Positions 14,109-50,020 of a stretch of 58,627 nt of DNA are shown here, in pieces. Both the position numbers and the translations under genes were made by a program. The stretch spans positions 1 through 58,627 of the forward strand of contig JAKOGY010000004.1 of the NCBI GenBank assembly GCA_028658405.1, in the 5' to 3' direction. Origin of the DNA: Dolichospermum sp. ST_sed8 (GTDB taxonomy: Bacteria; Cyanobacteriota; Cyanobacteriia; Cyanobacteriales; Nostocaceae). The notes under the pieces were generated by a model. It was not told the origin of the DNA. It was given only the letters and a program-made list of their open reading frames with translations, and ran no database searches. The stretch's first letter is position 1, and each line of letters begins with the position of its first letter.

Positions 14109-14258
14109 ATGAAAATACATATTTCTCAAAGATTAAAACGCCGTCAATTCTTACTACAAGCCGCAATGACTACTGGTACTATGATCACAACAAATCTGTG
14201 GTCAAAATTAGCTGTAGCTCAAACACCCGCATTCATAAGAATACCCGGTAAGTGGTAA
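14109..14258 (+). pseudogene. phoD: phoD 5' fragment: Tat signal peptide
   Basis: The reading frame begins MKIHISQRLKRRQFLLQA. It has a twin-arginine motif (RRQFL at 11-15), a hydrophobic stretch and a likely cleavage site after AVA (residue 37), followed by QTPA. At 14,233 the frame enters the inserted element and ends at a TAA after 49 codons. The sequence resumes as LDKNRPAIPYGVASGD at 14,684. The left half is thus the export signal of the PhoD phosphatase encoded downstream. On its own it would make only a signal peptide. Confidence 0.85.
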
Positions 14259-14683
14259 ACTCAGCGGCTTTAGCCCTGAGAGGGAAACGACACGGGCGGT
14301 AATAAAGGCTTTGAATCTTTTTTCATTACCGCCTTGGAGTTAAGAAATTCGGGGTACTTTTGTAATGTACTTTCAACGGGACAATTACCGATTCAAATTT
14401 CTCAACTCTGTACGCATAATGTTTTGCTCCAAAGAGCCTCCCTTTCGGGGTGATGTTAGCAACGACTGCGTTATAAGAGCTTGTTATACTTGCAACACTG
14501 TTTCTGTTACCTTAAAACTGTTTAATTGCAAATGACAGAGCAAGGAACTAGCTTCGCATTCCGGGGTGTCGTGACTCAAATAACGGCTACCCTTCGACTA
14601 CGCTCAGGGTGGTCTGGTCAGCACGGCTTGCTTGATTACTCTTGCAAGCCCAGTCCCTTTAGGGCTGGGTTACTGACCACATT
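14234..14683 (-). mobile_element. Non-autonomous isrB/iscB-type element inside phoD
   Basis: Read on the minus strand the 450-bp insert has a left end hairpin (CCCAG..CTGGG, 14650-14670) followed by GGGCTTGCAAGAG, similar to the left end of the isrB element at 21778 (GAGCTTGTAAGAA). It reaches CTTTGGAGCAAAACATTATGCG, similar to the segment ending in the isrB start codon. The right end carries ACCGCCCGTGTCG, TTCCCTCTCAG, CACTTACCGG and TCTTATG, closely matching the isrB 3' end at 23060-23131. Only about 10 codons of a protein frame remain, so the protein gene was deleted. CATT occurs at both junctions (14230-14233, 14680-14683). An internal perfect 9-bp stem GGCGGTAAT/ATTACCGCC lies at 14293-14333. 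Confidence 0.8.
14418..14679 (-). ncRNA. Candidate omega-RNA of the non-autonomous element
   Basis: In IscB/IsrB systems the guide RNA is encoded between the left end and the protein start, with its guide taken from the sequence outside the left end. The matching interval here is rich in inverted repeats (ACCCCGAAAGGGAGG, CTTGCAAG..CTTG) and ends at the vestigial start codon at 14417. Its 5' neighbour on the minus strand is phoD sequence. The assignment rests on position and end similarity, not on a covariance model. Expression is unknown. Confidence 0.45.
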
Positions 14684-16142
14684 AGACAAAAACCGCCCTG
14701 CTATACCCTACGGTGTCGCTAGTGGCGATATTAACAATAATAGCGCAGTAATTTGGAGTCGTAGTAATCGCCCTGCCAGAATGATTATAGAATATGCTAC
14801 CGATGAAAGTTTCCGGAATGTGAACCGGATTATTGGCAAAGTTGCTACAGAATATACTGATTTTACCGCGAGAACTTACTTAGATAATTTACCCCCAGGT
14901 CAAGATATTTTTTACCGTGTCACTTTTCAGGATTTAGTTGATACTAACATTTACAGCGCTCCGGTAATTGGTCATTTGAAAACTGCACCCCAAACACGGG
15001 GAAAAGATATATTATTTGCCTGGTCTGGAGATACCGCAGGACAGGGTTGGGGAATTAATTCAGAATGGGGAGGAATGAAAATTTATGAATCTATTCGTCA
15101 ACTGAACCCCGACTTTTTTATTCATTCTGGAGATACTATCTATGCAGATAATCCTATTCAAGCAGAAGTAAAGTTAGAAGAAGGGAAGATTTGGAAAAAT
15201 ATCACCACAGAAGAAAAATCAAAGGTTGCAGAAACCCTGAAAGAATTTCGCGGTAACTATATTTATAACCTTTTAGATGAAAATATTCAACGATTTAATG
15301 CCCAAATTCCCCAACTGGTGCAATGGGATGATCATGAAGTCAGAAATAATTGGTATCCTGGGCAAATATTAGATGATAATCGCTATCAAGTTAAGGATAT
15401 TTCTCTATTAGCATCACGGGCAAGACAAGCATTTTTAGACTATACACCTATTCGCTATAATCCTCAAGACCCAAACCGAATTTATCGTCATTTTCATCAT
15501 GGTGAATTACTAGAAATTTTCATGTTAGATGAACGTAGCTACAGAGGTAAAAATTCTCCAAATAATCAAACAGTAGCTAGTGAAAAAACTGCCTTTTTTG
15601 GTAATTCCCAAATCAAGTGGTTGAAAGATAAATTAAAGAACTCAAAATCCACTTGGAAAATAATTGCTAGTGATATGCCAATTGGGTTAATGGTTAAAGA
15701 TGGAAAAACAGACTTTGAAAACTTTGCCAATGGTGATGGTAAACCCTTAGGAAGAGAATTAGAAGTAGCTGATTTATTGCAGTTTATTAAAAATAATAAT
15801 ATCCGCAATGTGGTTTGGTTAACCGCTGATGTCCATTATGCCGCAGCCCATTATTATCATCCCAATAAAGCCCAATTTACCGATTTTAAACCTTTTTGGG
15901 AATTTGTGGCTGGACCTCTCAATTCTGGAAACTTTGGACCAAATCAACTAGATAATACCTTTGGACCAGAAGTAAAGTTTCAAACTGCTTCTCCAGAAAT
16001 AAAACTCAATCAACCACCAAGTTCAGGGTTACAGTTTTTTGGAATGGTGAAAATTGACGGACAAACAGAAGTTTTAACAGTGACTTTACATAATTTAGCA
16101 GGGAAAAAAATCTATAGTCTAGATTTAGAACCAGAGGTCTAA
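14532..16142 (+). CDS. phoD: PhoD alkaline phosphatase, catalytic part without its signal peptide
   Basis: From codon 14,684 onward this is a PhoD-type metallophosphoesterase. Metal-ligand motifs are FAWSGDTAG, FFIHSGDTIYAD, VQWDDHEVRNNW and the C-terminal TADVHYAAAHYYHP. PhoD enzymes are Ca/Fe-dependent phosphodi/monoesterases exported by Tat, used to obtain phosphate from organic sources. The first 51 residues of the present ORF are antisense sequence of the inserted element, not PhoD. The first ATG of the frame is at 14532 (a TTG lies at 14526). If translated, the product would stay in the cytoplasm. Removing the 450-bp insert would give one 527-residue PhoD with its Tat signal. The catalytic region itself shows no stops or frameshifts, so the interruption looks recent. 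Confidence 0.85.
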   Translation: MTEQGTSFAFRGVVTQITATLRLRSGWSGQHGLLDYSCKPSPFRAGLLTTLDKNRPAIPYGVASGDINNNSAVIWSRSNRPARMIIEYATDESFRNVNRIIGKVATEYTDFTARTYLDNLPPGQDIFYRVTFQDLVDTNIYSAPVIGHLKTAPQTRGKDILFAWSGDTAGQGWGINSEWGGMKIYESIRQLNPDFFIHSGDTIYADNPIQAEVKLEEGKIWKNITTEEKSKVAETLKEFRGNYIYNLLDENIQRFNAQIPQLVQWDDHEVRNNWYPGQILDDNRYQVKDISLLASRARQAFLDYTPIRYNPQDPNRIYRHFHHGELLEIFMLDERSYRGKNSPNNQTVASEKTAFFGNSQIKWLKDKLKNSKSTWKIIASDMPIGLMVKDGKTDFENFANGDGKPLGRELEVADLLQFIKNNNIRNVVWLTADVHYAAAHYYHPNKAQFTDFKPFWEFVAGPLNSGNFGPNQLDNTFGPEVKFQTASPEIKLNQPPSSGLQFFGMVKIDGQTEVLTVTLHNLAGKKIYSLDLEPEV

Positions 16143-21576: not shown

Positions 21577-21777
21577 ATGGTCAAAAAAGCCGATATCAGC
21601 ACCAAAAAACTAATTAGCCTCGCTCCTGAAAATTGGGTAAAATGGGTAACACAAATCCCCGACATTACCGCCGGAGAAATTCTCAATTCCGAATTTCAGT
21701 GGATAAGCAGAGAAAGTGATGTATTAATCAAAGCTACCAGTCCTCAGTACGGCGAATTTCTTGTTCTCAGTCAATAA
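21577..21777 (+). pseudogene. 5' fragment of a PD-(D/E)XK (Rpn-like) gene broken by the isrB element
   Basis: The frame starts MVKKADISTKKLISLAPENW and reads QWISRESDVLIKATSPQYGEFLVL, the N-terminus of a familiar cyanobacterial putative nuclease family (recalled, not searched). After GEFLVL it enters the left end of the isrB element and stops within two codons. The C-terminal part of the same kind of protein resumes at 23134. About 130-150 residues of the usual middle are absent from both fragments, so sequence was lost as well as interrupted. Confidence 0.7.
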
Positions 21778-21983
21778 CTCAGGGCTTAAGCCACTGAGCT
21801 TGTAAGAAATCAAGGCTTACGTGATTGACTAGCCTATTGAGACGTAATTTGGTACGAACTTCCAGATACTTCCCCAGTCTGGATTATCTTCAAGCTATCT
21901 TGTAATAGCGTTGGGTAAAGCCAAGACATCTTAGTTACGTTAGGCGAGGGGACTTTAAACTTTGCTCCAAGGATTATCTCTTA
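21768..21983 (+). ncRNA. Candidate omega-RNA of isrB
   Basis: The roughly 215 non-coding bases between the element's left end and the isrB start occupy the place where IscB/IsrB omega-RNAs are encoded. They contain several complementary arms (GGCTTAAGCC; CCAGATACTTCCCCAGTCTGG; AAGCTATCTTG) and GGCGAGGGGACTTT close to the start codon. By family rule the guide would be copied from the DNA immediately left of the element, here the end of the broken nuclease gene (GCGAATTTCTTGTTCT). No covariance model was applied. Confidence 0.55.
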
Positions 21984-23131
21984 ATGCGAGTACCCGTAAT
22001 TTCAGTAGACAACACACCATTAATGCCAACTAAACCAAGTCGGGCAAGACGGTGGATTAAAGACGGCAAAGGCATCGGCAAATTCGACAAACTTGGCATT
22101 TTCTATGTCCAGTTGTTATCCGAACCAAGCAATGTCGAAACACAAGAAATAGTTATTGGTTTAGACCCTGGCAAACTCTTTTCAGGCATAGCGGTTCAAT
22201 CAAAAAAGTTTACCTTACAAATGCTACATTTAGTCCTTCCATTTAAAACAGTCAAAGACCGGATGGAAACTCGGTCAATGATGCGACGCAATAGGAGAGG
22301 AAGGCGAATTAATAGGAAGATACCCTTCAATGTCCGTAATCATCGCCAAGCCAGATTTGATAATCGTCGCGGCTCAAAATTGCCTCCAAGTATTAGGGCA
22401 AACAAAGATTTGGAATATCGAGTAATTAGTTTACTCCTCCAACTTTACCCAATAAAAACACTTGTCATTGAGGAAGTTGAAGCACGAGGTAACAAAGGCT
22501 TTAGTCCTGTAATGGTTGGTCAAAGATACCAGATTAGCCGACTATCAGAACTTGCTGATGTAGTTTTAAAGAAAGGCTGGGAAACATCAAACCTTCGTAA
22601 ACACCTGGGATTACATAAAGAAAAATCCGATAAGTCTTTACAAATACCAGAAACCCACGCTGTTGACGCGGTGACATTAGCAAGCTCTGAATTTGTTAAA
22701 TACAAGACTTGGGCAGGAGCTAAAAATCATGGTGCATCTTGGGTAGGATCTGTAGATATCACTGAATCACAATTCACTATTGTGCGCCGTCCACCAATCA
22801 GCCGTAGACAACTCCATTTGATGACATTTAGCCAGGGTGGTAATCGTCGGAAATATGGCGGATCTACAACCCGTCATGGTTTTAGAAAAGGTGACTTTGT
22901 AAAAGCCAGTCAGGGCAGTAAAACATTCTTTGGCTGGGTTAGTGGAGATACTGAAAAACAAGTCTCTGTCAGTGACGCTAATTGGAAAAGACTAGGACAA
23001 TGCACTGTTAAAAAAGTTAAGTTGATACAAAGATCGACAGGTCTAATTATCACTGCGGTTAAAACCGCCCGTGTCGCTTCCCTCTCAGCACGCTTTGTGA
23101 CTGAGTTTCCCACTTACCGGAAGGTCTTATG
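21768..23131 (+). mobile_element. isrB-containing OMEGA / IS200-IS605-like element (no TnpA)
   Basis: The left end has a subterminal hairpin with CTCAG..CTGAG arms around GGCTTAAGCC (21778-21798). The right end has a matching CTCAG..CTGAG hairpin (23084-23105) followed by TTTCCCACTTACCGG and TCTTATG. The same end structures occur in the phoD insert at 14234-14683, which sets the boundaries to within a few bases at the right end; the left boundary is less sure. Subterminal hairpins without terminal inverted repeats fit IS200/IS605-type elements. Only the RuvC-like gene is carried; no TnpA HUH transposase lies in the window. Confidence 0.7.
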
Positions 23132-23132
23132 A
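21984..23132 (+). CDS. isrB: IsrB RNA-guided RuvC-like nuclease (OMEGA, no HNH)
   Basis: The 382-residue protein begins with the RRXRR/PLMP domain of the IscB-IsrB family (TPLMPTKPSRARRWIKDGKG, 11-30). It then has RuvC-I (GLDPGKLFSGIAV, Asp61), an Arg-rich bridge helix (MMRRNRRGRRINRK, 99-112), RuvC-II (TLVIEEVEA, Glu163/164) and RuvC-III (ETHAVDAVTLA, His225, Asp228). Only about 60 residues separate RuvC-II and RuvC-III, too few for the HNH domain of IscB, so this is IsrB, a family characterised as an omega-RNA-guided nickase. The C-terminal part (RRQLHLMTFSQGGNRRKYGG, RKGDFVKA) matches the target-interaction region. The stop codon lies in the right end of the element. All RuvC residues are intact. 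Confidence 0.88.
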   Translation: MRVPVISVDNTPLMPTKPSRARRWIKDGKGIGKFDKLGIFYVQLLSEPSNVETQEIVIGLDPGKLFSGIAVQSKKFTLQMLHLVLPFKTVKDRMETRSMMRRNRRGRRINRKIPFNVRNHRQARFDNRRGSKLPPSIRANKDLEYRVISLLLQLYPIKTLVIEEVEARGNKGFSPVMVGQRYQISRLSELADVVLKKGWETSNLRKHLGLHKEKSDKSLQIPETHAVDAVTLASSEFVKYKTWAGAKNHGASWVGSVDITESQFTIVRRPPISRRQLHLMTFSQGGNRRKYGGSTTRHGFRKGDFVKASQGSKTFFGWVSGDTEKQVSVSDANWKRLGQCTVKKVKLIQRSTGLIITAVKTARVASLSARFVTEFPTYRKVL

Positions 23133-47398: not shown

Positions 47399-47442
47399 TT
47401 TAATCTATTTACTGTCACCTGTCACCTTTTTGCTGACACCCG

Positions 47443-47479
47443 GAAAAAACTTAACCCCAGCTATCTTAGCCAGGGTTTC
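47443..47479 (-). terminator. Attenuator-like terminator upstream of rplJ
   Basis: On the minus strand AACCCTGGCTA..TAGCTGGGGTT forms a stem followed by AAGTTTTTT. It lies directly downstream of the L10 leader and about 195 bases before the rplJ start, the layout expected for L10-controlled transcription attenuation. Confidence 0.7.
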
Positions 47480-47491
47480 AAAGGAGTATTT

Positions 47492-47580
47492 TTAAAGCCG
47501 TAGTTATTAAACTTCAGGCGGTTAAAATTACAACCTCGGCAGGGTATTAAGCTATTAGCACCTGCTGTCTCCGGCTTTGC
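47492..47580 (-). ncRNA. Ribosomal L10 leader
   Basis: On the minus strand the sequence reads AAAGCCGGAGACAGCAGGTG, then TTAATACCCTGCCGAGG, matching the conserved core of the bacterial L10 (rplJ) leader. The outer stem AAAGCCG (47572-47578) pairs with CGGCTTT (47494-47500). L10 (or the L10-L12 complex) binds this leader to repress its own operon in other bacteria. The Rfam model was not run. Confidence 0.8.
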
Positions 47581-47646
47581 TTATTTAATTTTGGTTATTG
47601 GTAATTACTGATGATATTCATCTATTACCAATTACCCATTACCAAA

Positions 47647-49947: not shown

Positions 49948-50020
49948 CGCGCCCTGGAGGACTTGAACCCCCGACATCAGGTTTTGGAGACCTGCGTTCT
50001 ACCAACTGAACTAAGAGCGC
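49948..50020 (-). tRNA. trnW: tRNA-Trp (CCA anticodon)
   Basis: The 73-nt minus-strand cloverleaf has acceptor GCGCTCT / AGGGCGC, D arm TTCAGTTGGTAGAA, anticodon loop TCTCCAAAA with CCA, and T arm GGGGGTTCAAGTCCTCC with discriminator G. The terminal CCA is not encoded. It lies between rplS and secE, as in other cyanobacteria. Confidence 0.95.

Follow-up and report, generated by a model that had tools for sequence, protein, structure and literature searches.

A short insert interrupts the phoD gene of Dolichospermum sp. ST_sed8 in the 58,627-nucleotide stretch of DNA analysed here (the window). It carries a guide-RNA region and no protein gene, which raises the question of what kind of element it is, how it reached its site and which protein, if any, could use its RNA. 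The first-pass annotation regarded it as a protein-less relative of the isrB element 7 kb away that could use the IsrB protein in trans, a parasitic or regulatory arrangement said to be rarely described. The analysis supports the view that the insert is a non-autonomous, omega-RNA-bearing relative of IsrB/IscB elements. That it is a mobile HEARO element unable to move by its own means is very likely, and any function that it has therefore rests on proteins supplied in trans.

The element, whose parts are listed in Table 1, starts at its left end with GTCAGTAACCC at position 14677 and finishes at its right end with ..CCGGGTATTCTT, followed by ATGA. The limits proposed at first, 14234 to 14683, enclose the insert itself together with most of the TCAT target and six bases of phoD flank. 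Covariance-model scoring bore out the predicted guide-RNA region, with positions 14450 to 14677 matching model positions 1-211 of RF02033 (HEARO) at 131 bits and E 6e-27, which is full coverage and above the gathering score of 83 bits. A profile search found no RRXRR match at this locus, which thus does not qualify as an autonomous IscB/IsrB element. At the motif 'ATTATGCG', which marks the position of the old start codon, the ATG of the phoD copy opens 10 codons, so the protein gene is nearly gone, as had been read from the sequence. The element resembles known HEARO RNAs (IscB/IsrB omega-RNAs) in matching the full model above its gathering score beside a mobile-element left end, and differs from them in having no RRXRR/HNH ORF behind the RNA. 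A guide-like 5' flank and an NTG(A)-type tetranucleotide on the 3' side, the latter a putative TAM, are found across the element family. The insertion splits phoD after codon 42, with the element antisense to the gene, and the severed first 42 codons presumably encode a Tat-like signal.

Table 1. Coordinates of the element in phoD, its host gene and the isrB element of the window
Feature	Position	Strand	Remarks
ORF-less HEARO (IscB/IsrB-type) element	14237..14677	-	441 bp, both ends
Omega-RNA (HEARO) scaffold, left-end hairpin at 5' end	14448..14677	-	RF02033; compensatory changes in ORF-less copies
Remnant inside the element: context of the former start codon (CATTATGCG) plus non-coding filler of the deletion derivative	14331..14447, approximate	-	Copy alignment
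Right end with hairpin, common to IscB, IsrB and a congeneric tnpA/tnpB IS605 element	14237..14330, inner limit approximate	-	
ATGA (TCAT on +), TAM-like tetranucleotide of the host site, adjoining the right end	14233..14236	-	
Host flank, would-be guide of about 16-20 nt (length inferred)	14678..14697	-	Differs between copies
phoD 5' part, first 42 codons, severed by the insertion	14109..14236	+	Sequence, uninterrupted orthologues
phoD remainder	14678..16142	+	Reading frame extends upstream into the element (TTG at 14526)
Complete isrB element of the window, more distant relative	21770..23128	+	ATGA 23129-23132 overlaps the isrB stop
isrB, 382 aa, RRXRR domain	21984..23132	+	Nearest solved chain IsrB 8dmb, E 1.4e-50

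Short elements of this kind are widespread. The source genome (G000) contains at least 47 matches to the 441-bp element (40 of 153 candidates scored), and its 43 HEARO matches stand against nine RRXRR matches, representing eight IscB/IsrB genes and one fragment. No RRXRR accompanies 34 of the 43 HEARO, seven of which (C519, C497, C498, C257, C259, C528 and the second C26) lie too close to contig ends to be judged. Four complete congeneric genomes hold 123 HEARO in total (70 in G011, 29 in G004, 20 in G009 and 4 in G007); an RRXRR match lies within 100 nt in 16 cases and about 2.2 kb downstream in three more, and there is none in the remaining 104. Searching for a 24-base pattern that spans the old start codon brought up 25 named loci, spread over Dolichospermum, Anabaena, Nostoc, Calothrix, Cylindrospermum and Tolypothrix, six genera of cyanobacteria. 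At all 25 the ATG opens 5-41 codons and never more, and with the patterns used the left end was found in 22 and the right end in 14. In the alignment of the copies, ORF-less elements fall into two or more layouts, one containing the 'ATTATGCG' filler and another lacking it, and these two retain the whole RNA. The search of related genomes suggested in the first-pass annotation thus returned ORF-less relatives in abundance, in congeners and in other genera. In some genomes the ORF-less elements, a multicopy, MITE-like family, number in the dozens, and elements that have lost the RNA are under-counted because the census began from HEARO matches.

Similar DNA is present on seven of 72,556 plasmid records, and just one of these, from a Dolichospermum, covers most of the element, spanning 99% of it at 91% identity. 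A survey of 148 genomes of the order, in which at most 14 candidates per genome were scored so that copy numbers are lower bounds, found HEARO in 78, RRXRR in 82 and both in 74, a co-occurrence that is partly built in because the RNA also adjoins the protein gene. Exceptions to it are G087, where at least 13 HEARO stand beside no more than a weak RRXRR fragment (E 2e-9), four genomes (G044, G061, G062 and G164) with one to four HEARO each and no RRXRR, and eight genomes with RRXRR and no HEARO.

The insertion point was analysed in 142 elements, comprising 24 from the source genome with both ends and 118 of the 123 congeneric HEARO, the other five (E > 1e-5) having been dropped. The right end could be parsed in 96 of them and is followed by ATGA in 94 and by GTGA in two, one real (L230) and one a mis-parse (L330); the 46 elements that gave no right end with the patterns used stand outside this count. 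Empty sites were sought in eight congeners for 20 of the 24 predicted sites of the source genome (C56, C166, C26a and C530 being left out), and 30 matched loci, corresponding to ten sites (C500, C274b, C133, C148a, C47, C20, the phoD copy, C523, C12 and C148b), were kept and realigned. Nine of the ten align without gaps up to 12 nt from the junction, which indicates that no target duplication is made; the exception is C523, where the relatives have a gap at the junction, of 6 nt in the best match (G011). In eight of the ten, ATGA occurs in the empty allele of at least one relative, and as a rule it belongs to the target. At C47 (ATTA or GTGA) and at phoD the empty alleles read other tetranucleotides, so that for these two sites a recipient ATGA can only be assumed. 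Judged by the listed matches alone, C427, C89 and C253a also look contiguous, and no clear empty site was seen among the eight congeners for C11, the window isrB element, C274a, C171, C264, C144 and C416b. The host sequence 5' of the left end varies from copy to copy and, in empty alleles, runs directly into the tetranucleotide, as expected if the guide is taken from the insertion site. Two copies, L228 of G011 and C264 of the source genome, agree in their left flank and not in their right one, which points to a deletion next to one of the two or to a rearrangement there.

A search with the phoD remainder gave matches in 11 of 41 genomes, the source genome included. The site is uninterrupted in all eight relatives examined (L079-L086), whose alignment is likewise unbroken up to 12 nt from the junction, and its tetranucleotide is ATAA in six, ATCA in one and ATTA in one, with ATGA in the source genome alone. 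The insert could be conceived as a dead relic, an isrB or iscB element that lost its gene in place, and the gene is indeed absent; but the idea deserves next to no credence in view of the uninterrupted phoD of the relatives and of the many further sites, other genera included, that have the same ORF-less layout and shared junction. From these two observations, the element most likely arrived already gene-less. The regulatory role once suggested for this copy likewise finds no support, since the element interrupts phoD in antisense and the site is empty in all eight relatives; as part of the best explanation, an ordinary gene-breaking insertion is proposed.

Short elements without a transposase are well known as non-autonomous derivatives of the IS200/IS605 family, namely MITEs and PATEs. 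These share a hairpin end with a tnpA element, make no target duplication and have a fixed tetranucleotide at one end, in all of which they are like the ORF-less elements described here; the latter differ in carrying a whole guide-RNA gene. A possible source of the transposase was found through the right end, which as a query against the complete genome G009 gave 30 matches, several of them without a nearby HEARO, and 15 such places were examined. One of them, L358, is a two-gene IS605 element encoding a 133-aa Y1 transposase (PF01797, E 3e-37) and a divergent TnpB (PF01385, E 9e-13). Its tnpA-side end is the same sequence as the right end of the ORF-less element, ATGA included (82.6% over 69 bp, E 1.6e-12), and its far-end hairpin resembles the left end, by eye only. 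In the source genome, locus C405 is a C-terminal tnpA remnant with the same right end; no intact tnpA with a matching end was found among the 10 of 12 Y1 loci examined, and no end of this kind was seen in the 220 nt that follow the tnpA genes of C61 and C9. Given this common right end, the ORF-less elements are probably moved by a TnpA acting in trans.

Other places in G009 have the same end. Four of them (L353-L356) carry an identical 75-base version (..GCGCTCGTTTCCCACTTACCGCGAGGTCTTATG), with no left end by the patterns used, no common ORF in the preceding 3 kb and, at L353, no Rfam match; they are perhaps a second, RNA-less MITE using this end. At L357 the right end adjoins a divergent TnpB-like ORF of 455 aa, and no Y1-like ORF was seen upstream. 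Short MITEs are also on record for a related cyanobacterium, Anabaena sp. 90, for which PMC3542288 gives 147 MITEs of 77-541 bp, classed as type II since no IS shared their ends. If these include the ORF-less HEARO family, the IS605-like end would supply the missing transposase link.

The protein that could use the RNA was at first sought in the neighbouring isrB gene, a nickase encoded 7 kb away that would load the RNA of the phoD element. The outer ends of the two elements do match, as the first-pass annotation had noticed, with 36 of 45 aligned bases equal at the left end (where BLAST alone gave no match) and 75% identity over 85 bp at the right end (E 4e-11). The isrB gene is an open 382-aa frame, with catalytic motifs that we take to be intact, and the congener G007 has three ORF-less HEARO and, as sole candidate partner, an isrB-like gene. 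Against the pairing stands the RNA core, in which 138 of 185 aligned bases (74.6%) agree between the two elements and shuffled sequences average 72.5% and reach 80.3% at most, so that pairwise alignment found no likeness beyond the shuffle level. The window isrB RNA is shorter than that of the phoD element and matches HEARO weakly, at 54 bits, below the 83-bit cut-off. The IscB elements of the same genome are nearer to the phoD element, both in the RNA part (C11, 80% over 231 bp; C56, 77% over 247 bp; C12, 73% over 248 bp) and at the right end (83%, 88% and 90%, respectively). The window isrB element, which represents a separate subfamily, was rejected as nearest parent on its RNA-core identity, and a pairing of its product with the RNA of the phoD element is, on this evidence, distinctly unlikely.

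Judged by stop-to-stop frames, the iscB genes of C12 and C28 look complete, that of C56 is broken by a stop, C94 is a fragment and C11 is without part of the HNH region. The C11 gene (L039) has an internal in-frame deletion in this region that leaves a 365-aa frame, and its product appears to have reached an IsrB-like state by deletion. In the window isrB element, ATGA at 23129-23132 provides the TGA stop of the gene, so that the host site completes the gene end. Another isrB element, L169 (G011:C1:4389800-4394800), contains, between the omega-RNA and the isrB start, a group II intron at 1281-2940 (RF00029, 50 bits) whose ORF of 524 aa is reverse-transcriptase-like. Three more isrB copies of G011 have gaps of 2.2-2.3 kb, and at 1613953 the gap is inside the gene.

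Movement by TnpA would also be expected of a purely cis-acting MITE, in which the hairpin ends alone matter and the omega-RNA is a passenger of recent amplification. Such a reading is in keeping with the likeness of the copies, which reaches 94-96% so that much of the conservation may be due to youth, and with the right ends of G009 that have no nearby HEARO. It is harder to reconcile with the retention of RNA beyond the left-end hairpin in different deletion layouts, with the start-codon motif of the derivative in six genera and with compensatory changes in the RNA. The latter were assessed in 36 ORF-less RNAs, the phoD copy and 35 picked by hand from 60 congeneric RNAs of fitting length, using the Rfam structure, which was derived independently of them. 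Under this structure 87.2% of cells pair, compared with 30-41% when it is slid by 1-3; ten pairs are changed on both sides, compared with a shuffled mean of 5.2 (a value that 1 of 500 shuffles reached was as high as the observed one); and covariation scores 0.107, compared with 0.071 (0 of 500 as high). Further pair types, one of five measures, were not raised (24, compared with 25.1 in shuffles). RNAalifold gave 54 pairs for the same RNAs, nine of them with changes on both sides. Pairing is kept by compensatory change in the ORF-less copies, although gene conversion, or descent from different parents, may account for part of this covariation. An RNA that is only carried along is rather unlikely in the light of these data.

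The explanation that we consider probable is a non-autonomous IS200/IS605-type element that combines ends moved by TnpA with a complete omega-RNA gene whose product is used by IscB in trans. The two ends would be kept for movement by a Y1 transposase (TnpA) in trans, with the complete omega-RNA gene at the left end. The TnpA of an L358-like IS605 element would excise the element and insert it as a single strand 5' of ATGA, with no target duplication, whereby the host sequence directly upstream would become the guide and ATGA the TAM. Transcription reading through from the flank would yield guide and scaffold in one transcript, and IscB made elsewhere in the genome could load it. Loaded IscB might then cut a re-emptied site, and repair from the sister copy would restore the element, leading to its retention. 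The conservation of the RNA, the TAM-like ATGA and published trans function make use of the RNA by IscB in trans moderately likely.

The element in phoD is real and well formed, and its kind is already known. The 2009 description of HEARO is said to have noted ORF-less copies and ATGA/GTGA integration sites, and the OMEGA work on standalone omega-RNAs reportedly dates from 2021. According to PMC9581776, standalone omega-RNAs functioning with IscB are documented in earlier OMEGA work cited there, and to call the arrangement rarely described was too strong; the same paper gives a measured NTG TAM for a Dolichospermum IsrB. Standalone omega-RNAs and the present family have in common an omega-RNA without its own nuclease gene and an IscB in the genome, whereas the family is distinguished by a complete two-ended mobile element, a copy number that in some genomes runs to dozens and an internal layout common across genera. 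It provides a natural high-copy setting for asking whether standalone omega-RNAs acting in trans help an element to survive, and a single genus offers its parents, its empty sites and a candidate transposase.

The aspect most worth following, and new to us, is an excess of insertions at start codons. A start site was defined by an in-frame stop at most 35 codons upstream in the rejoined site and an ORF of at least 100 aa; by this definition a start codon immediately follows the element in 35 of 86 ORF-less copies, ATG in 34 cases and GTG in one. The control consisted of 4202 ATGA in 458 kb (the window and 20 stretches of G011), of which 4.3% open such an ORF, as do 111 of the 1101 at non-coding positions (10.1%). 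The corresponding binomial p-values, 2e-25 against all ATGA and 1e-13 against non-coding ATGA, are optimistic because related copies are not fully independent, and the same holds for the p of 4e-12 obtained with the 33 of 86 strict start sites, which have no in-frame upstream ATG on the element side. By genome, start sites account for 5 of 18 copies in G000, 17 of 39 in G011, 9 of 12 in G009, 4 of 16 in G004 and 0 of 1 in G007. None of ten ORF-bearing elements is at a start codon (Fisher p 0.012, optimistic in the same way); in that count C12, shortened by its locus, opens 51 codons. Two insertions are common to G000 and G011 (C530/L280 and C47/L239), neither of them a start site.

Among the 35 genes behind these copies, 20 were scanned; they include aroB (TIGR01357, 407 bits) and hemA (NF000744, 546 bits, from residue 1) as well as genes for peptidase S41, COP23, PspA-like and Uma2 proteins, and for four of the 20 no family was found at the thresholds used. 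A right end that supplies a Shine-Dalgarno sequence (GAGG before ATG) was considered and rejected: the first 24 sites had hinted at a link to start codons, but it is gone over the 86 ORF-less sites, with GAGG at 11 of 35 start sites and 16 of 51 others (p 1.0). The excess reflects either better survival of such insertions or a preference for the start region. A literature search of titles and the openings of abstracts, whose range did not extend to the 2009 HEARO and 2021 OMEGA papers, brought up none that deals with HEARO elements inserted at start codons.

As a tentative suggestion, these copies may represent a guide-RNA MITE that lands on start codons. The omega-RNA would become the 5' leader of a host gene, be transcribed with its guide from the host promoter and serve IscB in trans, with the host protein spared; the exact landing between host leader and start codon would follow from ATGA (or GTGA) being the TAM and target. 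If this is true, the host gene replaces iscB in the transcript and keeps the guide RNA expressed. The excess, which extends to genes usually thought essential (aroB and hemA), suggests how a guide-RNA element could remain both transcribed and tolerated. Co-option of the start-codon copies as omega-RNA-bearing regulatory leaders, with or without IscB binding, could draw on the same 35 of 86 copies, those at aroB and hemA among them, yet it is very improbable. No start-codon site common to genomes was found by N-terminal similarity (42 sites, each of at least 60 aa), and the start-codon sites C133, C274b and C148b are empty in relatives, which looks like recent landing and not like conserved regulation; the phoD copy, not being a start-codon insertion, is of a different kind. 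Elsewhere in the window, ordinary features include a ribosomal protein L10 leader at 47440-47592 (RF00557, 65.6 bits) and a tRNA at 49948-50020.
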